Shown here one piece after another: positions 49,706 through 59,317 of a DNA stretch of 64,000 bases. Made by a program: the position numbers and the translations under genes. How positions within the stretch are numbered: the stretch's first letter is position 1; the number at the start of each line of letters is the position of its first letter. The DNA comes from Thauera sp. JM12B12. Lineage in GTDB: Bacteria > Pseudomonadota > Gammaproteobacteria > Burkholderiales > Rhodocyclaceae. The notes below the pieces were generated by a model. That model was given only the letters and a program-made list of their open reading frames with translations, made no database searches and was not told the origin of the DNA. Location of the stretch: positions 620,001 to 684,000 of the forward strand of contig NZ_CP154859.1 of the NCBI RefSeq assembly GCF_039614725.1, in the 5' to 3' direction.

Positions 49706-51082
49706 TCACTGGCGGTGAGCCGCCTTCCACGCTTCGAACTCGGACGGACGCAGGCCGTAGCGTGCCAGCACGCCTTCGTGTAGCCGCCGCAGCTCTTCGA
49801 TGATCAGTGCCTGAACCTCGGGCTGCGCGTGCGCCGGAACCTGCCGCGCCACGGCTTGCCGGATGGTGTCGAGCGGGTCAAGTTCCGGATGCGTGACGAC
49901 CTCACGCAGGGTCACCTTGATGACGTCGCGCCACGCCAGGCGCAGGGGGTCGGGCTCTGCCAGGTCCTGCTTGATGGCCAGGTATTCCTGCGTCGAGCGC
50001 TCATAGGCCCACACGTAAAGATCGCGCAGCAGCTCGACGCGCGTCATTTCATACACGCCAAGCGTTGCGCGGCTGTACGCCTGCTCCGGCACGTCCAGAA
50101 AGGTCAGCGGACACAGGTTGGCGCGGAACAGCGGCAGGTTCGCTGCGAGCCGGGAGCTGCGCTTGTTGATGTCGGCAAAGGGCTGCAGATACGGCAGGTG
50201 CACCATCATGAAGAAGGACTGCTCGAAGGGGTCGATGATGCTGTTGGCCTTGGCGAGCAGCGTGTCCAGCGCGTCCTCGATCTGCTTCGGCGTCGTCAGC
50301 GGCCGGTACACGCTCTGGCCGATATCCACCGCGTGCTGACGAATCCGACCTTCATCGGCAGGGTTGGGCAGCAGGTTCTCGGCCAGCACGCCATGCAGGT
50401 TCATCAGCAGGTAGCGGTTGAATTCGGCGCTGTCGACGTTCTCGACCAGCAGCTCGATCGCCGCCTTGTGGTTCAGGATCATCTGCGTTTCGATCGCCGC
50501 CTTGCCGCGTGCGGCCTTGCCGTGCTCGATGAGCTCGCGCGTGTCGAGGCGCGAGTAGGTGTTGCCTTCGAGGCGGCTCGACGCCCAGGACAGATCGATC
50601 AGCAGCCGGTTGAGGATGCCGCGGCTGTAGGTGCCTGCAGGCGCATCGAGCGCTGCAGTCCGCCCCATGCTGTGCAACTGGCGACGCAGCGACTCGGGCA
50701 GATACCAGGTCTCGTTCGGGCGGTAGGCGTCCAGGAAGTCTCGCTGATAGCCCACGGGCCTGCGCGCCTCCGGGGGCTGGTTGATGTAGTCGAGGATGTC
50801 CTGGCTGTCCGCCGACAGCGGGATGAAGCGCGGAAAAGTGTCGGCTCCGACTGCGCCGCCGGGCTGGTCGCCTGTGCGCCCGTGGTAGCGGTCGCCCACG
50901 AAATAGCGGCGGGCCCTGCCTTCGCCTTGAGCGCTGACCTTGCCCTCGTCGATCAGCTTCGCGGTCAGGCGCTGTGCCGTGCGTCGCGCAATGTCGGGGT
51001 GTCGCGTGAGCAGTTCTGCCAGTGTCAGTCCTTCGTCGGAAGACTGGATGCTGTTCAGCAGGGTCGAGGTGGAGGACGTCAT
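49706..51082 (-). CDS. Fic-domain protein with winged-helix N-terminus and non-canonical active site
   Basis: 458 residues from ATG 51082; ATG 51106 and TTG 51145 are alternatives but would run into the repeat array. Residues about 10-65 look like a winged helix (LTLAELLTRHPDIARRTAQRLTAKLIDEGKV). An inhibitory-helix motif SSRLEGN (168-174) precedes the Fic core. The active-site loop reads QPFADINKRSSR (300-311) where canonical enzymes have HPFxDGNGRxxR: the catalytic His is Gln300 and both glycines are replaced. Classic AMP transfer is therefore doubtful. Joined to a DNA-binding domain, it may be an autoregulator. It is the first gene of the accessory segment. Confidence 0.85.
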   Translation of the reverse strand: MTSSTSTLLNSIQSSDEGLTLAELLTRHPDIARRTAQRLTAKLIDEGKVSAQGEGRARRYFVGDRYHGRTGDQPGGAVGADTFPRFIPLSADSQDILDYINQPPEARRPVGYQRDFLDAYRPNETWYLPESLRRQLHSMGRTAALDAPAGTYSRGILNRLLIDLSWASSRLEGNTYSRLDTRELIEHGKAARGKAAIETQMILNHKAAIELLVENVDSAEFNRYLLMNLHGVLAENLLPNPADEGRIRQHAVDIGQSVYRPLTTPKQIEDALDTLLAKANSIIDPFEQSFFMMVHLPYLQPFADINKRSSRLAANLPLFRANLCPLTFLDVPEQAYSRATLGVYEMTRVELLRDLYVWAYERSTQEYLAIKQDLAEPDPLRLAWRDVIKVTLREVVTHPELDPLDTIRQAVARQVPAHAQPEVQALIIEELRRLHEGVLARYGLRPSEFEAWKAAHRQ

Positions 51083-51087
51083 GATGC

Positions 51088-51171
51088 TGGCGCGGTTCGA
51101 AATCATTGTGGCGCAATTCTGGCGCAGTTCTGAAAATTGCGCCAATCCTGATGCGCGATTTGGCGCAGTTC
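51088..51171. promoter_or_regulatory. Phased 11-bp repeats upstream of the Fic gene (putative operator)
   Basis: The sequence TGGCGCAGTTC or a close variant occurs at 51088-51098 (GG for AG), 51109-51119 (AA for AG), 51120-51130 and 51161-51171, plus an inverted copy AAATTGCGCCA at 51134-51144. The direct copies are offset by 21, 32 and 73 bp, close to whole turns of B-DNA, so bound proteins would sit on one face. Copies at 51109 and 51135 also form a TGGCGCAATT/AATTGCGCCA palindrome. Confidence 0.75.
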
Positions 51172-51440
51172 AAGCCGTCCCGTCGATGCCCGGCACGCCT
51201 CCCGGCCCGGCCGGCAGGATGCGCCGATGACGCTGTTCTGGCGCACCGCCTGAAACCCGCGCCATGCCGTCGTTTGCGCGTAAATCACTGTTGCAACGAG
51301 AAAAAGATCACGAAACCCCTAAAGGTTTACGGGGGCCGGCCGTTGACCCCACCAAGCGGCTATGGAATCGTAACAGCCATTAACAGCCGCCAAATTTGCT
51401 GCACTGAACAAGTACCATCCGCGCCGGATTTGAATCACCG
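51172..51440. other. Intergenic stretch before the first riboswitch
   Basis: 269 bp with no credible gene. It must hold the promoter for the first protease and may hold part of the Fic promoter. It is AT-richer near 51290-51330. I see no convincing sigma-70 or sigma-54 promoter. Confidence 0.5.
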
Positions 51441-51531
51441 CCGCGGCCTGAAAAAGGCAAACCCGTCGAAAGTCGGGGACGCAAAATCACCGGTCTACAA
51501 GGCTAGCGCCTCATGACAGCGGGATTGCCAG
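51441..51531 (+). ncRNA. Cyclic di-GMP-I (GEMM) riboswitch, copy 1
   Basis: The aptamer core reads GGCAAACCCG, a GAAA tetraloop (51468-51471), GGGGACGCAAAATCACCGG, then TCTACAAGG and GCGGGATTGCC closing P1 with GGCAA (51456-51460 with 51525-51529). These are the conserved blocks of the GEMM-I family: the GNRA loop, the GACGCAAA segment, CACCGGTCTA as variant of CACGGGYCUA, and the 3' GGUUGCC-like strand. It binds c-di-GMP. The P1b stem has one U-U mismatch (51466/51473). It lies about 100 nt before the first protease. Confidence 0.93.
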
Positions 51532-51571
51532 GAAAGTGACGCTGCCCTGTCAGGGACAAGCGCTGCTGTGT

Positions 51572-51626
51572 CTCCACGCGATCTCGAGGTCGAGCCCAAG
51601 GGCCGGGAACCGGAAAACGCATGGAG
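51572..51626 (+). promoter_or_regulatory. Putative expression platform sequestering the protease 1 Shine-Dalgarno
   Basis: CTCCACGCG (51572-51580) can pair with CGCATGGAG (51618-51626) at eight of nine positions; the latter contains the GGAG that serves ATG 51633. An alternative pairing CGCTG (51561-51565) with CAGCG (51517-51521) reaches back into the aptamer, which could make the two folds exclusive. No terminator with a U run lies in the leader, so translational control is favoured. Confidence 0.6.
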
Positions 51627-51632
51627 TCACAG

Positions 51633-53393
51633 ATGAACACGTCCGCTTCCCTTCGCAAGCCTGTACTTGCTTCCCTGGTTGTCGCCCTCGGTGCGGCCTT
51701 CATTCCTGCTCAAGCCGTTGCTGCTGAAGAAGCGCAATGGGTCCCTGGTCGCCTGCTGGTGCAACCGCGTGCGGGCCTGTCGGAAGCGGAGTTCGACAAG
51801 ATCATCAAGCCGCACGGCGGCAAGCAGGTCGGGAAGATCGAAGGGATCAACGTGCGTGTGATCCAACTCCCGCCGCAGGCCTCGGAGAAGGCGGTGGAGG
51901 CGCTGCTGAAGAACAACAAGCATCTGAAGTTTGCCGAACGGGACAGGATCGTGCCGCAGGACACGACCAACGACCCGTACTTTGGCAACGCGTGGCATCT
52001 TCCGAAGATTGGAGCGCCGACAGCCTGGGCTACGGGTACCGGTGCCGGTGTCACGATTGCGATCCTCGATTCGGGGATTGACAGCAAGCATCCCGACTTG
52101 GCCGGGAAGGTCCTTCCGGGCTGGAATTTCTACGATGGGAACTCGGATCTGACCGACGTGACCGGTCACGGCACACAGGTCGCCGGTACGGCGGCTGCGG
52201 CGAGCAATAACGCAACCGGTGTCGCTTCGATTGCCGGGGGGGCAATGATTCTTCCCGGTCGCATTGCGAGCACGACCGGTAGCGCATCGTTCAGCACGAT
52301 GGCGAAAGGGGTGACTTGGGCGGCCGACCAGGGGGCACGCTTGGCGAACATCAGTTACGGCGGTGCGCGGAGTTCGTCGACGGTGCAAAGCGCCGGGCAG
52401 TATCTCAAGAGCAAGGGTGGGCTGCTGGTGGTGTCGGGCGGTAACAGCGGCGCGGAGGAAATCATTGCGGCCAGCGATGCGCTGATTGCGGTTTCTGGTA
52501 CGACGAGCACCGATGCGAAGGCGAGCTGGTCCAGCTTCGGCAGCTACATTGATGTGGCGGCACCGGGTGCGGGGATCTGGACGACGAACAGGGGGGGCGG
52601 CTACGGGTCCATTTCCGGAACTTCCATCGCCAGTCCTGCGACCGCGGGTGTTCTGGCGCTGATGATGGAAGCGAACCCGAAGCTGGGGCCCGATGATCTG
52701 ACGAAGCTGCTGTTCTCGACCGCGGTCGATCTGGGAACGGCTGGGTACGACAAGTACTTTGGTCACGGACGGGTCAACGCGGCCGCTGCAGTACAAGCGG
52801 CCGCAACGGCCACCGTCTCTGATACGAGTGCGCCCACGGTCAGCGTGAGCGGGCTGGCTGCCGGGGCGACGGTATCGGGTCTAGTGGCCGTCGGCGTCAG
52901 CGCCACCGACAACGTCGGCGTGAGTCGAGTCGAGCTCCTGGTCAACGGCAGCCTGCTCGCGACCGATATTTCCTCGCCCTACGGATTCAGTTGGGACTCC
53001 ACCAAGACGCCGGACGGAACTGCAACGCTCACGGCGCGCGCCTACGACGCGGCTGGAAACTTCACGGCGAAGTCGCTGAGCGTCACAGTCGCCAACAGCA
53101 GTGCCAAGACTACGGCTGCGGATACGGTTGCACCAGTGGCCGCGATTACCAATCCGGTCGGCGGAGGTCGGGTAAATGGCACGGTGAGCGTGAATGGGTC
53201 TGCCAGTGATGATGTCCGTGTAACTCAGATGCGCCTGTACATCGATGCCAAATTGGTGAGCACGGTCACTGGGAATAGCCTCAGCTACCGCTGGAACACC
53301 AAGAAGGTTGCGGCGGGAACGCATACGATTACGCTCGATGCGTTCGATGCGGCAGGGAATCGAGGTACGCGCAGCATCACGGTCACACGGTAA
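51633..53393 (+). CDS. Secreted subtilisin-like serine protease with Ig-like domains, copy 1
   Basis: 586 residues. Signal peptide about 1-30 (ends AQAVA), propeptide-like region (about 35-115; WVPGRLLVQPRAGLSEAEF), then the S8 domain with Asp146 (AILDSGID), His179 (GHGTQVAGT), oxyanion Asn271 and Ser331 (GTSIASPATAG). Two Ig-like domains follow, about 400-486 and 495-586. There is no PEP-CTERM, autotransporter or T1SS repeat signal, so it is probably released or matrix-bound. ATG 51633 has GGAG 6 nt upstream; ATG 51621 lies inside that signal. Translation or transcription should respond to c-di-GMP. Codon use is less GC-rich than that of its neighbours. Confidence 0.93.
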   Translation: MNTSASLRKPVLASLVVALGAAFIPAQAVAAEEAQWVPGRLLVQPRAGLSEAEFDKIIKPHGGKQVGKIEGINVRVIQLPPQASEKAVEALLKNNKHLKFAERDRIVPQDTTNDPYFGNAWHLPKIGAPTAWATGTGAGVTIAILDSGIDSKHPDLAGKVLPGWNFYDGNSDLTDVTGHGTQVAGTAAAASNNATGVASIAGGAMILPGRIASTTGSASFSTMAKGVTWAADQGARLANISYGGARSSSTVQSAGQYLKSKGGLLVVSGGNSGAEEIIAASDALIAVSGTTSTDAKASWSSFGSYIDVAAPGAGIWTTNRGGGYGSISGTSIASPATAGVLALMMEANPKLGPDDLTKLLFSTAVDLGTAGYDKYFGHGRVNAAAAVQAAATATVSDTSAPTVSVSGLAAGATVSGLVAVGVSATDNVGVSRVELLVNGSLLATDISSPYGFSWDSTKTPDGTATLTARAYDAAGNFTAKSLSVTVANSSAKTTAADTVAPVAAITNPVGGGRVNGTVSVNGSASDDVRVTQMRLYIDAKLVSTVTGNSLSYRWNTKKVAAGTHTITLDAFDAAGNRGTRSITVTR

Positions 53394-53620
53394 ATTAGGC
53401 GGTCATCCTGCACCATGCGGCAAGGGCTTCCATCTTCAGTTGGGCAAAGGTCTCTATCGCAACTCAGGGCTGTGCACTAGCAAGTCTCCAATGCGGTAGA
53501 ACAGTCGTCCGCAGAAAACGCTGAGATCCTGAATGGCGAAGGCATCGGTCAGATCGTGCTGGCTTGATGTCTTCCAATAAGCAGTATTCGCGTCGACGCC
53601 CGTCACCAAGGTGCGAGTCG
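53394..53620. other. Spacer between the protease copies
   Basis: 227 bp that lacks an intact gene. On the minus strand it keeps a 54-codon open fragment (53454-53618). No intrinsic terminator for copy 1 and no clear promoter for copy 2 were found, so readthrough from copy 1 into the second riboswitch cannot be excluded. Confidence 0.55.
53454..53618 (-). pseudogene. Possible remnant C-terminal coding fragment
   Basis: A minus-strand frame encodes a protein-like stretch (RTLVTGVDANTAYWKTS, then DAFAIQDLSVFCGRLFYRIG and GDLLVHSPELR) ending at TAG 53454. It is cut off on its upstream side at the boundary of the duplicated unit. I do not recognise the family. It may be the tail of a gene interrupted when the second protease copy was inserted, or a chance frame. 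Confidence 0.35.
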
Positions 53621-53711
53621 CCGCGGCCTGAAAAAGGCAAACCCGTCGAAAGACGGGGACGCAAAATCACCGGTCTACAAGGCTAGCGCCTCATGACAGC
53701 GGGATTGCCAG
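53621..53711 (+). ncRNA. Cyclic di-GMP-I (GEMM) riboswitch, copy 2
   Basis: Same aptamer as copy 1 at an offset of 2180 bp and nearly base for base. The visible difference in the core is A at 53653 where copy 1 has U, which turns the P1b U-U mismatch into a U-A pair below the GAAA loop. P1b is therefore fully paired here, so copy 2 may be the more stable aptamer. Confidence 0.93.
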
Positions 53712-53751
53712 GAAAGTGACGCTGCCCTGTCAGGGACAAGCGCTGCTGTGT

Positions 53752-53806
53752 CTCCACGCGATCTCGAGGTCGAGCCCAAGGGCCGGGAACCGGAAAACGC
53801 ATGGAG
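53752..53806 (+). promoter_or_regulatory. Putative expression platform sequestering the protease 2 Shine-Dalgarno
   Basis: Same arrangement as copy 1: CTCCACGCG (53752-53760) opposite CGCATGGAG (53798-53806). The whole 100-nt leader is identical between the copies. Confidence 0.6.
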
Positions 53807-53812
53807 TCACAG

Positions 53813-55561
53813 ATGAACACGTCCGCTTCCCTTCGCAAGCCTGTACTTGCTTCCCTGGTTGTCGCCCTCGGTGCGGCCCTCGTTCCTGCTCAAGCCGTTG
53901 CCGCTGAAGAAGCGCAATGGGTCCCCGGCCGCTTGCTGGTGCAACCGCGTGCGGGCCTGTCGGAAGCGGAGTTCGACAAGATCATCAAGCCGCACGGCGG
54001 CAAACAGGTCGGGAAGATCGAAGGGATCAACGTGCGTGTGATCCAACTCCCGCCGCAGGCCTCGGAGAAGGCGGTGGAGGCGCTGCTGAAGAACAACAAG
54101 CATCTGAAGTTTGCCGAGCGGGACATGATCGTGCCGCAGGACACGACGAACGACCCGTACTTTGGCAACGCGTGGCATCTTCCGAAGATTGGAGCGCCGA
54201 CAGCCTGGGCTACGGGAACCGGTGCCGGTGTCACGATTGCGATCCTCGATTCGGGGATTGACAGCAAGCATCCCGACTTGGCCGGGAAGGTCCTTCCGGG
54301 CTGGAATTTCTATGATGGGAACTCGGATCTGACCGACGTGACCGGCCACGGCACGCAGGTAGCGGGTACGGCGGCCGCGGCAAGCAATAACGCAACCGGT
54401 GTCGCGTCGATTGCCGGGGGGGCGATGATTCTTCCCGGTCGCATTGCGAGCACGACCGGTAGCGCATCGTTCAGCACGATGGCGAAAGGGGTGACCTGGG
54501 CAGCCGATCAGGGCGCGCGCCTGGCGAACATTAGCTACGGCGGTGCGCGGAGTTCGTCGACGGTGCAAAGCGCCGGGCAGTATCTCAAGAGCAAGGGTGG
54601 GCTGCTGGTGGTGTCGGGCGGTAACAGCGGCGCGGAGGAAATCATTGCGGCCAGCGATGCGCTGATTGCGGTTTCTGGTACGACGAGCACCGATGCGAAG
54701 GCGAGCTGGTCCAGCTTCGGCAGCTACATTGATGTGGCGGCACCGGGTGCGGGGATCTGGACGACGAACAGGGGGGGCGGCTACGGGTCCATTTCCGGAA
54801 CTTCCATCGCCAGTCCTGCGACCGCGGGTGTTCTGGCGCTGATGATGGAAGCGAACCCGAAGCTGGGGCCCGATGATCTGACGAAGCTGCTGTTCTCGAC
54901 CGCGGTCGATCTGGGAACGGCTGGGTACGACAAGTACTTTGGTCACGGACGGGTCAACGCGGCCGCTGCAGTACAAGCGGCCGCAACGGCCACCGTCTCT
55001 GATACGAGTGCGCCCACGGTCAGCGTGAGCGGGCTGGCTGCCGGGGCGACGGTATCGGGTCTAGTGGCCGTCGGCGTCAGCGCCACCGACAACGTCGGCG
55101 TGAGTCGAGTCGAGCTCCTGGTCAACGGCAGCCTGCTCGCGACCGATATTTCCTCGCCCTACGGATTCAGTTGGGACTCCACCAAGACGCCGGACGGAAC
55201 TGCAACGCTCACGGCGCGCGCCTACGACGCGGCTGGCAATTTCACGACCAAGTCGCTGAGCGTCACTGTGGCGAACACGGCTGACACGCTTCCCCCGTCC
55301 GTGACGATTGCAAACCCCGTTGACGGCACCTCGCTGTCCGGGCTGACAAGCGTGTCTGTAAAAGTCGATGCGATCGACAACATTTCCGTCAAGACGCTTT
55401 CACTCTATATCGACGGGAAACTGGTCAGCACGGCAACAGGCGGTGTTCTGAGCTACAGCTGGAATATCCGCAAGCTTGCGGCGGGTACCCACGAAATCCG
55501 TGCCGAAGCCCTTGATTCCGCAGGGCTGAAGGGTACGAAGATGGTCTCGGTGGCGCGATGA
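53813..55561 (+). CDS. Secreted subtilisin-like serine protease with Ig-like domains, copy 2
   Basis: 582 residues, near-identical to copy 1 up to the end of the first Ig-like domain. Changes seen there are FIPAQ to LVPAQ at the signal peptide, Arg105 to Met in AERD(R/M)IVPQD of the propeptide, and Ala to Thr near NFT(A/T)KSL. The catalytic Asp, His and Ser are unchanged. The C-terminal domain (about 490-582; PPSVTIANPVDGTSLSGL, LAAGTHEIRAEALDSAGLKG) has the same fold as in copy 1 but a clearly different sequence, so the two proteases may bind different surfaces. A terminator follows at 55698. Confidence 0.93.
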   Translation: MNTSASLRKPVLASLVVALGAALVPAQAVAAEEAQWVPGRLLVQPRAGLSEAEFDKIIKPHGGKQVGKIEGINVRVIQLPPQASEKAVEALLKNNKHLKFAERDMIVPQDTTNDPYFGNAWHLPKIGAPTAWATGTGAGVTIAILDSGIDSKHPDLAGKVLPGWNFYDGNSDLTDVTGHGTQVAGTAAAASNNATGVASIAGGAMILPGRIASTTGSASFSTMAKGVTWAADQGARLANISYGGARSSSTVQSAGQYLKSKGGLLVVSGGNSGAEEIIAASDALIAVSGTTSTDAKASWSSFGSYIDVAAPGAGIWTTNRGGGYGSISGTSIASPATAGVLALMMEANPKLGPDDLTKLLFSTAVDLGTAGYDKYFGHGRVNAAAAVQAAATATVSDTSAPTVSVSGLAAGATVSGLVAVGVSATDNVGVSRVELLVNGSLLATDISSPYGFSWDSTKTPDGTATLTARAYDAAGNFTTKSLSVTVANTADTLPPSVTIANPVDGTSLSGLTSVSVKVDAIDNISVKTLSLYIDGKLVSTATGGVLSYSWNIRKLAAGTHEIRAEALDSAGLKGTKMVSVAR

Positions 55562-55697
55562 GATAAGCGTAACTTCTTGGTCGCGTCAGCGTGCGTTGAT
55601 ACGGATTTGTTGCTCGTATTGCGTTCCGCTTAGTCCCTGCTCGGCTGGTGGCAAGGCTTTGCAGCGCACTTCGATGTGATTGATGGTTCGACAAAAG

Positions 55698-55725
55698 AAA
55701 CAAGCCCCATCTCGGGGGCTTGTTT
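55698..55725. terminator. Bidirectional intrinsic terminator
   Basis: AAACAAGCCCC / GGGGCTTGTTT with a 6-nt loop between protease 2 and the convergent PEP-CTERM gene. Both strands provide a T-rich side, so it serves both genes. Confidence 0.9.
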
Positions 55726-55764
55726 GAACCTCGAATCAGATTTGGACTCGTCTGACGAAAGCCT

Positions 55765-56556
55765 TCAGGCGGCGTTCCACTTGCGGCGCGAGGCCCACAG
55801 TCCAAGAAGACCGCCGCCAATGAGCAGCAGGCTACCCGGTTCCGGAACGGTCTCATCGTCACCGTCGCCATCACCGCCGCTTTCTGCGTCGTGGGAGAAG
55901 GGCGCGGACCAGGCCACATCAACGTCGTCCACTATTTTGCATTGTCCTTTATCATCCTCAGTGCAGATCTTTCTGTTGTAGAGATCGAAGTGCAGAGCCA
56001 AGGTTTCATCAAGTCCCGAAATGTCGATCTCGAACGCCCGGTAGAGCATGTTCTTGGCCGCTGGAGAAATTGGCCCCTGACCAGTGTCATCGACATCGGC
56101 CGTGTCGTACTCGCCGGAGGTTGCTGCGCCCGTGAAGTTAAAGGCGTACTCAAAAAAGTATGTGTCAAAGATGTCGTGATCGGGTAAATCACCCGGATCA
56201 GCGAGTTGCGTCGCTGCTGATTCGAGAGGCGGCACGCCAAACACCATATCGTCGGTCACATCAACAGTGACTGCAGCGCCACCGTTATATTTGAAGGTGA
56301 AGAAACCAAAGTCGCCGCCGATCGTGGTTTTCGGGGTAATGGCCATGGAGAGGGCGTATGTGTCCCCTGCGGCATTCTGGGTACTTTCTTGCAGATATGT
56401 GTAGAGAGTGAATGGATTGGTGGTCGCTACAACCGTCTCGGTCGTAGTGTTGTACTCACCGTTAAAAATATCTAGCTGCAGCTGCGGGACGGCGTGCGCT
56501 GCAGTTGAGAAGGCAAGGCTGACCGCTGCAGCGAGTGTCAAATACGAAGTTTTCAT
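55765..56556 (-). CDS. PEP-CTERM sorting-domain protein (choice-of-anchor type)
   Basis: 263 residues from ATG 56556. Signal peptide about 1-22; a beta-rich body (YNTTTETVVATTNPFTLYTYL onward); an acidic Gly/Asp linker; then the exosortase signal VPEPGS (237-242), a hydrophobic helix LLLIGGGLLGLWA and the basic end SRRKW. Exosortase cleaves and anchors such proteins in organisms that make extracellular polysaccharide. It resembles the choice-of-anchor N group. The body has few cysteines. A sigma-54 promoter lies 63 nt upstream of the start. The gene is clearly more AT-rich than the housekeeping genes around it. Confidence 0.9.
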   Translation of the reverse strand: MKTSYLTLAAAVSLAFSTAAHAVPQLQLDIFNGEYNTTTETVVATTNPFTLYTYLQESTQNAAGDTYALSMAITPKTTIGGDFGFFTFKYNGGAAVTVDVTDDMVFGVPPLESAATQLADPGDLPDHDIFDTYFFEYAFNFTGAATSGEYDTADVDDTGQGPISPAAKNMLYRAFEIDISGLDETLALHFDLYNRKICTEDDKGQCKIVDDVDVAWSAPFSHDAESGGDGDGDDETVPEPGSLLLIGGGLLGLWASRRKWNAA

Positions 56557-56906
56557 GATGGCGTCTCCCGCGAGAGTGTAGTGGCCTGGTCGAAACGGGC
56601 CAAGCTTGATTTCAACCAAGCACTTCCCGTGCCATTTCTTTAAGTAACTGATTTATCGTTAGTAAATTTTGTGACTTCGCTCGTTTCTTAATTGAGTGTA
56701 AAGAAATCCGACATTGGGTTGGAGCCGGGTCATTCGCGTGCAGTAAGCTCGGCTCGCGGCATCGACGTGTGCGCAGTGCCGAGAACAAGCGCGCCGGAAA
56801 GTCATGCAGCTTGCTGAACGCTAGCCTCGAGATAGGGGGGGAGGTCTGACCGTCGAGATGGGGAGGGTGGCTGCACCCTGCATTCCGGTCAGCTTGGGCG
56901 CAGGCG
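56557..56906. other. AT-rich intergenic stretch with the PEP-CTERM gene promoter
   Basis: 350 bp. The part at 56640-56705 (TTAAGTAACTGATTTATCG onward) is strikingly AT-rich for this genome. It holds the sigma-54 promoter at 56619-56634 and would suit an enhancer site for an EpsR/PrsR-type activator upstream. No gene was recognised. Confidence 0.55.
56619..56634 (-). promoter_or_regulatory. Sigma-54 promoter of the PEP-CTERM gene
   Basis: TGGCACGGGAAGTGCT fits the -24/-12 consensus TGGCACG-N4-TTGCT at every position except one (G for T next to the -12 GC). It lies about 63 nt before the ATG. RpoN is encoded in this window. Sigma-54 control by PrsK/PrsR is known for PEP-CTERM genes in related bacteria. 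Confidence 0.8.
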
Positions 56907-57410
56907 CTACGACCGGCTCCATGGCGGTGGTGACACGAAACGCTCGGGTGTCAGGATCATGAAGCGGTCTCGTATCGCGCGGTGACGTGCCAGTTTCAGC
57001 AGGGCCTTGTCGCGTGTTAGCAGATGGGTGGCTTGGTCCAAAAGTGCGATCTCGAGAAACTTCTGGTCATCTGCGTCCTGACAACGAGGTAGCGAGATGA
57101 GCTTTTCTGACGCGATCCACTCAAGACGGTCGTCCGGTCGGGGCAGTAGGGACTCGAAGTGTGCATGTATGTGTTGTTGCGACGCTTCATTCAGAGCGAA
57201 TTGCCGGTAGGCAAGCACGCTTCGCAGCTCATCCAGGGCGTCGGGGCGGCTGCAAAGCCGGCAGTTTCCCGCCTCGATCCACTCCCGCAACGCCTCCAGC
57301 TTCGGATCGCGAAACATCCACAGCGCCAGCACCGTATTGGTGTCGAGCACGAGGCGAGGGCGGTCGTCCCTTGAGTCATCCCCGTTCTGGGGCGTAAGAA
57401 TTTCCGACAC
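56907..57410 (-). CDS. PIN-domain protein (putative TA-type toxin, PIN family)
   Basis: 167 residues from GTG 57410. The PIN nuclease acids are visible: Asp23 in LVLDTNTVLAL, Glu in DALDELRSVL, Asp-Asp in CQDADDQKF and Asp in LLTRDKALL. These coordinate Mg for RNA cleavage. The family matches the stand-alone PilT/PIN toxin group, but no antitoxin gene is next to it. The frame is open to GTG 57467, but that codon lies in the phaC terminator hairpin, so the later GTG is preferred; TTG 57425 is another option. Confidence 0.78.
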   Translation of the reverse strand: MSEILTPQNGDDSRDDRPRLVLDTNTVLALWMFRDPKLEALREWIEAGNCRLCSRPDALDELRSVLAYRQFALNEASQQHIHAHFESLLPRPDDRLEWIASEKLISLPRCQDADDQKFLEIALLDQATHLLTRDKALLKLARHRAIRDRFMILTPERFVSPPPWSRS

Positions 57411-57448
57411 TATCCCACCGTTCAATCCATTGAGTACCCCGTTAACGC

Positions 57449-57475
57449 AAAAAACGGGGAGGGTCACCCCTCCCC
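57449..57475 (-). terminator. Intrinsic terminator of phaC
   Basis: On the minus strand a perfect stem GGGGAGGG / CCCTCCCC with a 4-nt loop is followed by G and six T, just after the phaC stop. Confidence 0.92.
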
Positions 57476-57493: not shown

Positions 57494-59317
57494 TTAAGCC
57501 GCAGCCTTGACGTCAACACGCGCCTTGACGAAGCTGCCCGGCGCGTCTTCCAGCGCCTTCAGCTTGCCCTTGGCGGGGTCGCGCGGGTCGACCTGCGCGG
57601 CGTCGTGCCCGGTGACCCAGGCCTGCCAGTCGGTCCACCACGAGCCCGGGTTCTGCTGGGCGCCCTCGAGCCAGGCTTCGCCGGTTTCGGGCAGCTTGGC
57701 GGCCGGGTTGACCCAGTAGCCGTACTTGTTGGCCGCCGGCGGGTTGACGATGCCGGCGATGTGGCCGGAACCACCCAGCACGAAGCGCACCGGGGCGGTG
57801 AAGCGGCGGGCGCCCATGTAGGTGCTCTTCCACGGCGCGATGTGGTCTTCGATGGCCGAGATGAAGTAGCACGGCACCTTGATCTTGGTGAGGTCGATCG
57901 GGGTGCCGTCGATCTCGATGCCGCCCGGCTCGACCAGGCGGTTTTCCATGTACATGCTGCGCAGGTAGAAGCTGTGCATCGCGGCCGGCATGCGGGTGGA
58001 GTCCGAGTTCCAGTACAGCAGGTCGAACGGGAACGGGTCCTTGCCCATCAGGTAGTTGCTGACCACGAACGACCAGATCAGGTCGTTCGAGCGCAGCATG
58101 CTGAAGGTGCCGGCCATTTCCGAGCCTTCCAGGTAACCGCGCTCGAACATCTTCTTCTCGAGGCTGGAGACCTGGCCTTCGTCGATGAACACGCCGAGCT
58201 CGCCGGGTTCGGTGAAGTCGGTCATGGTGGTGAAGAAGGTGGCCGAGGCGATGCGCTTCTGGCGCTTGGCGGCGAGGTAGGCGAGCGTGGTGGCGAGCAG
58301 CGTGCCGCCCAGGCAGTAGCCGGCGGCGTTGACTTCCTTCTCGCCGGTCTGCTGTTCGATGGCGTCGAGCGCGGCGATCACGCCTTCCTTGACGTAGGCG
58401 TCGAAGCTCTTGGCAGCCAGGTGCTCGTCCGGGTTGACCCAGGAGATCACGAACACGGTGTGGCCCTGGTCCACGCACCACTTGATGTACGAGTTCTTCT
58501 CGCGCAGGTCGAGGATGTAGAACTTGTTGATCCAGGGCGGCACGATCAGCAGCGGCTTCTTCAGCACCTTGTCGGTGCTGGGGGTGTATTGCAGAAGCTG
58601 CATCATCTCGGTCTGGAACACGACCTTGCCCGGCGTGGTGGCGACGTTCTTGCCCAGCTCGAAGGCCGTGGTGTCGGTCATCTTGACGCGCAGGTTGCCG
58701 CCGCCTTCCTCGACGTCGCGCAGCAGGTTGTTGAGGCCCTTGAGCAGGTTCTGGCCGTGGCTCTTGACCGTCTCGCGGAAGACTTCGGGGTTGGTGATCG
58801 CGAAGTTGGACGGCGACAGGGCGTCGATGTACTGGCGGGTGTAGAAGGTGACCTTCTTCTGCGTCTGCTCGTCGAGACCGTCGACGCCGCTGACGGTGTC
58901 ATGGATGTGACGGGCGGCGATGAGGTAGGACTGCTTGATGAAGTCGAACAGGAAGTGCTCTTCCCATTCCTCGTCCTTGAAGCGCTTGTCGGTCTTCTCG
59001 GGAGCGGCGACCGGGGCGGCGCTGAGGCCGGCGACGCGCATCATCGAGTGCTGCCACAGCGAGAAGTAGTCCCACACCAGGTTCATCTGCGCCTGGGCGA
59101 GCTTGTACGGGTTGGCCAGCAGCTTGGCCATCATGTCCATGAAAGCCTGGGCGATGCCGAGCTCGTCGGCGGGGGTGGAAACGCCCTTCTTGAGCTGGCG
59201 ATGGACGTGGTCGCTGATCAGGTGCGAGGCGCGGCGGGCGACTTCGGCGTAGGTCTTGGCGACTTCCTGCGGGTCGGGCAGATCGCACTTGGGCGTTTCG
59301 TTGCTGGGTGCAGCCAT
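57494..59317 (-). CDS. phaC: Class I poly(3-hydroxyalkanoate) synthase
   Basis: 607 residues. It polymerises 3-hydroxyacyl-CoA into PHA granules. The lipase-like box GYCLGG has catalytic Cys335; the Asp and His of the triad lie in SAIEDHIAPW and GGSGHIAG near the C-terminus. The length and N-terminal domain (about 1-210) fit class I synthases acting without PhaE/PhaR. It lies 36 bp downstream of an MBL-hydrolase gene with which it probably shares a transcript, and ends in a strong terminator. Confidence 0.96.
   Translation of the reverse strand: MAAPSNETPKCDLPDPQEVAKTYAEVARRASHLISDHVHRQLKKGVSTPADELGIAQAFMDMMAKLLANPYKLAQAQMNLVWDYFSLWQHSMMRVAGLSAAPVAAPEKTDKRFKDEEWEEHFLFDFIKQSYLIAARHIHDTVSGVDGLDEQTQKKVTFYTRQYIDALSPSNFAITNPEVFRETVKSHGQNLLKGLNNLLRDVEEGGGNLRVKMTDTTAFELGKNVATTPGKVVFQTEMMQLLQYTPSTDKVLKKPLLIVPPWINKFYILDLREKNSYIKWCVDQGHTVFVISWVNPDEHLAAKSFDAYVKEGVIAALDAIEQQTGEKEVNAAGYCLGGTLLATTLAYLAAKRQKRIASATFFTTMTDFTEPGELGVFIDEGQVSSLEKKMFERGYLEGSEMAGTFSMLRSNDLIWSFVVSNYLMGKDPFPFDLLYWNSDSTRMPAAMHSFYLRSMYMENRLVEPGGIEIDGTPIDLTKIKVPCYFISAIEDHIAPWKSTYMGARRFTAPVRFVLGGSGHIAGIVNPPAANKYGYWVNPAAKLPETGEAWLEGAQQNPGSWWTDWQAWVTGHDAAQVDPRDPAKGKLKALEDAPGSFVKARVDVKAAA

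Follow-up and report, generated by a model that had tools for sequence, protein, structure and literature searches.

Tandem S8 subtilases with class I c-di-GMP aptamers beside a PEP-CTERM gene in Thauera and its relatives

Introduction

In Thauera sp. JM12B12, two genes for secreted-type S8 subtilases lie in tandem, each behind its own class I c-di-GMP aptamer, and the pair adjoins a gene for a PEP-CTERM protein. Comparison of genomes indicates that the pairing of aptamer and protease is old and runs through the Thauera family, instead of being peculiar to the window genome; here, the window is the whole stretch of 64,000 nucleotides that was analysed. The reading that we prefer, tentatively and with slightly less than even confidence, is that the two aptamers set translation of the proteases, that the proteases cut or release the neighbouring PEP-CTERM protein and that a shift in c-di-GMP would in this way remodel the surface of the floc or biofilm. 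The aptamers, the gene order, the conserved neighbourhood and the mosaic nature of the two copies, on which this reading rests, are observed directly.

Results

The tandem locus

The main elements of the locus, in window coordinates, are the following.

51447..51533, plus strand: class I c-di-GMP aptamer a (RF03167 72.1 bits; RF01051 81.6 bits)
51633..53393, plus strand: secreted-type S8 subtilase, copy a, 586 aa (PF00082 E 1.4e-45; catalytic residues)
53627..53713, plus strand: class I c-di-GMP aptamer b (RF03167 74.5 bits; RF01051 85.4 bits)
53813..55561, plus strand: secreted-type S8 subtilase, copy b, 582 aa (PF00082 E 1.4e-45; core as in copy a, tail 0.51 identical)
55698..55725, minus strand: terminator-like hairpin between copy b and the convergent PEP-CTERM gene (consensus scan, 11 pairs)
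55765..56556, minus strand: PEP-CTERM protein, choice-of-anchor N family (PF07589 31.4 bits; NF038141 136.6; TIGR02595 24.3)
56619..56634, minus strand: sigma54-like site before the PEP-CTERM gene (1 mismatch to TGGCACNNNNNTTGCW)

The original prediction of two tandem S8 proteases, each about 100 nt behind one class I aptamer, is borne out by the RF01051 covariance-model search that it proposed, and both aptamers lie above the gathering threshold of 35 bits. Their predicted location was right and their 5′ end was about 6 nt off. The betaproteobacterial host is likewise supported by the named relatives, Thauera and Aromatoleum, and the PEP-CTERM protein was correctly placed beside the proteases.

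Both subtilases contain the Pfam domains Fervidolysin_NPro-like (prodomain) and Peptidase_S8, followed by two stretches of Big_7 (Ig-like), and D144, H178, N268 and S329 are intact in the motifs of both proteins, which together with PF00082 assigns them to Peptidase S8. The catalytic domain is like that of thermitase-like S8 subtilases (the nearest solved relative of copy a is thermitase, 1thm, E 1.4e-55), whereas the C-terminal Ig-like tail and the riboswitch leader set the window proteases apart. The likely starts are the ATG at 51633 for copy a and the ATG at 53813 for copy b, each behind a GGAG and each some 100 nt from the aptamer end. The signal peptides of both proteins were read by eye, and export would probably follow this route.

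Divergent from copy a lies a gene for a Fic-domain protein (49709-51145, minus strand), which is kept in place in genome G012 (96% identical). On the other side, a gene for a PIN-domain protein (56910-57467, minus strand) has the PEP-CTERM gene as one neighbour and that of a class I PHA synthase (57497-59317) as the other, and relatives of the PIN-domain protein occupy a like position in G012 and G026.

A PEP-CTERM neighbour of changing sequence

The window neighbour belongs to the PEP-CTERM proteins by PF07589 (31.4 bits, cut-off 20.7), and its other two scores exceed the cut-offs of 40 (NF038141) and 16 (TIGR02595). The window genome holds five PF07589 matches and one exosortase. The consensus scan that gave the hairpin between the two convergent genes returned 8 terminator-like sites against 4.8 expected. 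No riboswitch precedes the PEP-CTERM gene among the Rfam matches above gathering score in the window.

The PEP-CTERM motif was sought at 27 protease loci with a purpose-made pattern. All 24 testable loci have a PEP-CTERM protein as their downstream neighbour, 17/17 in the Thauera family with Aromatoleum and 7/7 in Roseateles, Mitsuaria and Rubrivivax; G023 and G027, in which contig ends truncate the protease gene, are excluded from this count. Of two metagenome bins, SZUA-592 has no PEP-CTERM neighbour, and the one in Bin_57_9 lies upstream of the protease. Of the 24 neighbours, 23 exceed a curated cut-off of NCBIfam, either that of the PEP-CTERM domain or that of a PEP-CTERM family, and the neighbour in G113 is just under (Pfam 19.4, cut-off 20.7). 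The gap from the protease match to the PEP-CTERM open frame is below 600 bp in 22/24. In Rubrivivax benzoatilyticus the PEP-CTERM gene starts roughly 200 bp after the protease, the measured gap being an open-frame artefact, and in G025 two ORFs fill a gap of 2.4 kb. Motif matches left uncounted are a second PEP-CTERM gene in G020 and three chance-like matches (one in G004, two in L052).

Compared without their last 40 residues, the 24 neighbours form 8 groups that BLASTP does not connect at E 1e-4. The neighbour is convergent with the protease in 16 loci and on the same strand in 8. As the neighbour changes in group and orientation and not in sorting class, the protease most likely works on or with the PEP-CTERM sorting class, as judged from sequence comparison. 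The constancy of the neighbour also strengthens the earlier idea that the proteases may trim adhesins or matrix, and the neighbour is a candidate substrate. The link is also present in seven loci that have no riboswitch and is, therefore, no argument for c-di-GMP control in itself. Because the link is kept in loci that lack the riboswitch, the most economical history would be that the protease–partner pair came first and riboswitch control later, or that the riboswitch was lost elsewhere. At eight protease loci from other families in the order, examined with 1.5 kb flanks, the PEP-CTERM motif is present in two and a purpose-made aptamer pattern in none.

A sigma54-like site (at most 2 mismatches, within 300 bases before the open frame) precedes 13/17 partners from the Thauera family and Aromatoleum, versus 1/7 of the others. 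Nine of the 17 are at or below 5% of simple shuffles, and over the whole window the pattern shows no enrichment (17 matches against 28.7 expected).

The same neighbourhood evidence, a PEP-CTERM protein in 24/24 loci and 8 groups, would also suit a protease that matures or activates its neighbour, or aids its entry into the matrix, and that is switched ON so that high c-di-GMP builds flocs. A class I switch that acts in the ON direction with no terminator is described for Vc1 of V. cholerae (PMC4744006), and several processed bands are reported for the PEP-CTERM protein PepA of Aquincola (PMC9850573). We consider such maturation rather unlikely; sorting cleavage is expected from the exosortase itself.

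Spread of the riboswitch–protease pairing

Twenty aptamers were found in 17 of 29 genomes of the genus, and 13 of these 20 precede an orthologue of the window protease. Two others precede a second S8 that is about 36% identical, two (in G002 and G004) a metalloprotease-like protein and three another gene. In G002 and G004 (L015 and L131:4424-6397), the protein behind the aptamer is Peptidase_M11-like (43.1 and 48.1 bits, cut-off 21), and the M6 model gives 42.4, under its own cut-off. No orthologue of the window S8 was found in either genome, and this aptamer is their only class I aptamer. A different c-di-GMP-I aptamer, of 59.5-62.3 bits, is common to G019, G017 and G009 (L018, L019 and L020; 1501-1587 or the reverse). 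The protein behind it begins MTLLSRLYTYRATEARSPTEDF, and the copy in L019 (G017) has no Pfam match.

In 150 genomes of the Thauera family there are 143 aptamers, of which 140 are above the cut-off. Sixteen precede a relative of the window protease, always on the same strand (100 S8 genes counted) and at a distance of 101 to 870 nt from its first matched base. These 16 pairs include the two of the window genome and all six other matches with at least 53% identity. The pairing runs through the family and is not peculiar to the window genome; the search for it in relatives that had been suggested gave 13/20 aptamers in the genus and 16/143 in the family. Two protease loci of Aromatoleum have the aptamer. 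Nine more distant relatives of the protease, seven from Roseateles, Mitsuaria or Rubrivivax and two from metagenome bins, have no aptamer at gathering score.

A census of the genes behind the family aptamers took in 128 of the 143 and gave an ORF for 125 (L078, L213 and L218 gave none). Eleven aptamers were treated separately (two in the window, that of G002 and eight of the 16 pairs); G056:C55, at a contig end, and three matches under the cut-off also lie outside the census. Its Pfam figures rest on the 25 commonest families of each half and are lower bounds, and for at least one locus the chosen ORF was out of frame (L084, which the protease-pair search shows to be an S8). The commonest gene in this census encodes DUF1631 (at least 20/125; L068-L095, L151-L250), and HDOD proteins stand behind at least 9/125. 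Reprolysin-like models match at least 13/125 (the highest single-model counts are 8 and 5 per half), and HExxHxxGxxH occurs in 11/125 proteins. S8 accounts for at least 7/125, all in the first half; it is outside the best 25 families of the second. With the 16 pairs, two more S8 proteins (L087, L161) and the reprolysin-like matches, at least 31/143 aptamers precede an S8 or reprolysin-like protein, and thus proteases of several families are a recurring target of the family aptamers.

This breadth could also mean that the subtilases are general secreted scavenging proteases in a wide c-di-GMP hydrolase regulon and that the PEP-CTERM neighbour reflects inherited gene order with no working link. 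Consistent with this, other protease families stand behind aptamers (the reprolysin-like proteins, the S8 proteins and the M11-type proteins of G002 and G004), and a PEP-CTERM neighbour is missing in 10/10 of the remaining S8 loci with a riboswitch (G112 with little flank). Plain inheritance, however, fails to explain why the neighbour of the window-type protease varies in group and in orientation and yet stays PEP-CTERM, and scavenging is unlikely for this reason.

The aptamers and their ligand

An Rfam cmscan of the window gave aptamers a and b as its sole matches above gathering score, and no third RF01051 match exists in the 4,171,389-base Thauera genome by covariance-model search. The top Rfam label of both is RF03167 (c-di-GMP-I-GGC; gathering threshold 59 bits), which both pass, and the RF01051 bits of both are higher. 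In the Rfam alignment, the RF03167 consensus has a G after GACGC where both aptamers have an A. This G is, we take it, what "GGC" in the name refers to.

The ligand-contact check covered the equivalents of G20 and A47, with residue numbers and spacing as given for Vc2 and Vc1 in PMC4744006. In 20/20 aptamers of the genus, G and A occupy these positions with a spacing of 27 nt. Since the RF01051 bits are higher and both contact residues are canonical, c-di-GMP is the expected ligand of aptamers a and b. The genome has 41 GGDEF matches, 40 of them above the Pfam cut-off.

Of the 87 aptamer bases, a single one distinguishes the copies, T at 51473 and A at 53653. The T creates a U-U mismatch in P2 beside the GAAA loop of aptamer a, and the folding energy of the aptamer piece is -8.7 kcal/mol for copy a, which lacks one P2 pair, versus -12.7 kcal/mol for copy b. 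By this weakening of P2, the copies may respond at different levels of c-di-GMP. That the aptamers bind another cyclic dinucleotide, or have decayed and no longer regulate, might be read from the variant label and the weakened P2 of aptamer a, but is very improbable given the RF01051 scores, the canonical contacts and the retention of aptamers before orthologues across genera.

Leaders and the expression platform

Folding of the leaders predicts a helix that covers the ribosome-binding site of each copy.

51566..51580, plus strand: strand predicted to pair with the ribosome-binding site, copy a (leader folding)
51619..51632, plus strand: ribosome-binding-site strand (GGAG), copy a (P(unpaired) 0.00 vs 0.34 in shuffled leaders)
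53746..53760, plus strand: strand predicted to pair with the ribosome-binding site, copy b (folding; leader equal to that of copy a over 99 nt)
53799..53812, plus strand: ribosome-binding-site strand (GGAG), copy b (P(unpaired) 0.00 vs 0.34 in shuffled leaders)

For 19 orthologue leaders, the predicted unpaired value of the ribosome-binding site averages 0.12, compared to 0.35 in shuffles. The value is 0.10 or less in 9/19, and 7/19 are at or below 5% of their own shuffles while 12/19 are above. The hiding helix is built from different letters in each species, such as TCCATGC with GCATGGA in G015 and TTCCTCGCGT with ACGCGAGGAA in G127. In the window, the consensus scan of the coding strand gave no terminator-like site between aptamer and start, and there is no T-run terminator. 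The hidden ribosome-binding site and the lack of a terminator-like site point to control at translation. A sigma70 scan of 51200-56800 gave 0 sites.

Equilibrium folding with the aptamer forced, or with P1 and P3 forbidden, gave no coupling between aptamer and ribosome-binding site in 11/11 leaders; the mean unpaired value changes by at most 0.03 and the site stays hidden. As it is hidden alike in all 11, no switch emerges from the folding model, which does not tell ON from OFF. By-eye inspection found no competing helix beside P1 that is common to all leader types.

A mosaic pair

The regions upstream of the two copies are of different types.

51347..51446, plus strand: A-type upstream region of copy a (local alignment scores 81-149 with G026, G012, G013, G027 and G025a)
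53527..53626, plus strand: B-type upstream region of copy b (scores 43, 48 and 54 with G015, G016 and G025b)

For these alignments the shuffled 95% point is 21 and the shuffled maximum 27. The upstream region of copy b is weakly like that of G023 (score 22) and scores 12-20 against six A-type stretches. Compared in 60-base steps, the two copies have an identity of about 0.3-0.5 upstream; it rises to 0.88-1.00 over the stretch that begins with the aptamer and takes in the core, and drops to 0.39-0.65 in the final part. The 99-nt leaders are identical. A second species, G025, has the same order, A type first and B type second, with a core that is 0.90 and a tail that is 0.61 identical at the protein level; in contrast to the window pair, the leaders of its two copies are unlike each other.

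In the core tree, the window copies (G000a and G000b) group with P0002 and P0004 (SH-aLRT support 100), and G025a groups with G025b (99). The tail tree, in which 13/23 inner branches lack resolution, joins G000a to P0002 and G000b to P0004 (support 99 for each) and separates the two G025 tails. A fresh duplication is rejected, because copy b combines a B-type upstream region, as in G015, G016 and G025b, with the leader of copy a and because G025 has the same order with its alike cores and unlike tails. The simplest account of these sequences is an older pair in which gene conversion would keep the core, and here the RNA element too, alike, whereas promoters and tails have remained different. 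Thus, the duplicated module of the original prediction stands as a tandem pair and not as a simple duplication: aptamer, leader and core appear homogenised and promoters and tails differ. We consider an assembly artefact unlikely: the genome is a single contig, the sequences that flank the two copies differ, and other assemblies contain a close relative of each copy (P0002 and P0004).

Discussion

The known system that most resembles this locus in its logic is that of Clostridioides difficile, where a class I riboswitch precedes the gene for a secreted protease, Zmp1/PPEP-1, which adjoins a sorted surface-protein gene (CD2831, CD3246; PMC6366702, PMC6447587). According to these sources, the class I switch lowers the protease at high c-di-GMP, and the protease releases the surface protein CD2831. 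The Thauera locus has the same three parts, a class I switch, a protease gene and an adjoining gene for a sorted surface protein. It has no M-type Pro-Pro endopeptidase and no sortase substrate: PPEP-1 is a zinc protease that acts in a sortase-anchored system, whereas here an S8 subtilase stands with PEP-CTERM and exosortase. C. difficile uses a transcription terminator, in contrast to the Thauera leaders with no T-run terminator between aptamer and start, and a class II switch on the adhesin, in contrast to the lack of an Rfam match before the Thauera partner. By analogy, the locus would resemble the PPEP-1/CD2831 circuit without being a member of that system, since protease family, anchor and, judging by the leader, control mode differ.

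Two further systems share single parts. The Vc1 riboswitch of gbpA in Vibrio cholerae is also a class I aptamer with a long 5′ leader that lacks terminator control, and it has the same contact residues (PMC4744006); unlike the Thauera aptamers, it controls a chitin-binding adhesin and no protease. PepA of Aquincola is an RpoN-dependent PEP-CTERM protein involved in floc formation (PMC9850573). PepA and its kin have the same sorting signal as the window partner, and the sigma54-like site before 13/17 partners is a further likeness. In contrast, the window partner is of the choice-of-anchor N type and scores 28.2 with the PepA model (cut-off 80), and the available part of PMC9850573 mentions no protease partner for PepA.

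In the preferred reading, c-di-GMP would bind the aptamer and the leader would then alter access to the ribosome-binding site hidden by the downstream hairpin. The protease would be exported via its signal peptide and act on the exosortase-sorted partner, which is probably expressed from a sigma54-type promoter of its own. We infer ligand binding, gating, direction, export route and substrate. The two copies, which share sensor and catalytic core and differ in promoters and tails, would serve different times or different partners. As to direction, we lean slightly towards OFF, with little protease at high c-di-GMP and release when the level falls; the ground for this is the analogy with PPEP-1 and nothing else. 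Class I switches of other species act in both directions, and a review among the sources named above (PMC6366702, PMC6447587) cautions that direction is not transferable from one species to another.

It is also conceivable, although we regard it as somewhat doubtful, that the subtilase sits at a fixed address beside an exchangeable PEP-CTERM protein, that it was captured by the riboswitch in the Thauera family, as a Gram-negative release module, and that it was doubled in some Thauera to give one sensor and core with two promoters, two tails and two c-di-GMP thresholds. Bacteria in flocs could then free whichever exosortase-sorted protein occupies the slot, and the weakened P2 of copy a would provide for the two thresholds.

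Within the literature covered, at the level of titles and abstract beginnings and mostly outside subscription journals, no c-di-GMP riboswitch before subtilases and no protease–PEP-CTERM pair is reported. We find the wider family pattern of greater interest than the duplicated module. PEP-CTERM proteins are described as helping to bind the flocs of sewage bacteria (PMC9850573), and Thauera is termed a floc former (PMC3684757). For the Thauera family, the conserved protease, the changing PEP-CTERM gene and the c-di-GMP aptamer supply a concrete enzyme, a candidate substrate and a signal for the turnover of such proteins. If this is true, Firmicutes and Betaproteobacteria would have arrived at the same protease/surface-protein logic with different parts. 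The proteases likely cut or release the neighbouring surface-type protein as cells shift between clumped and free life.
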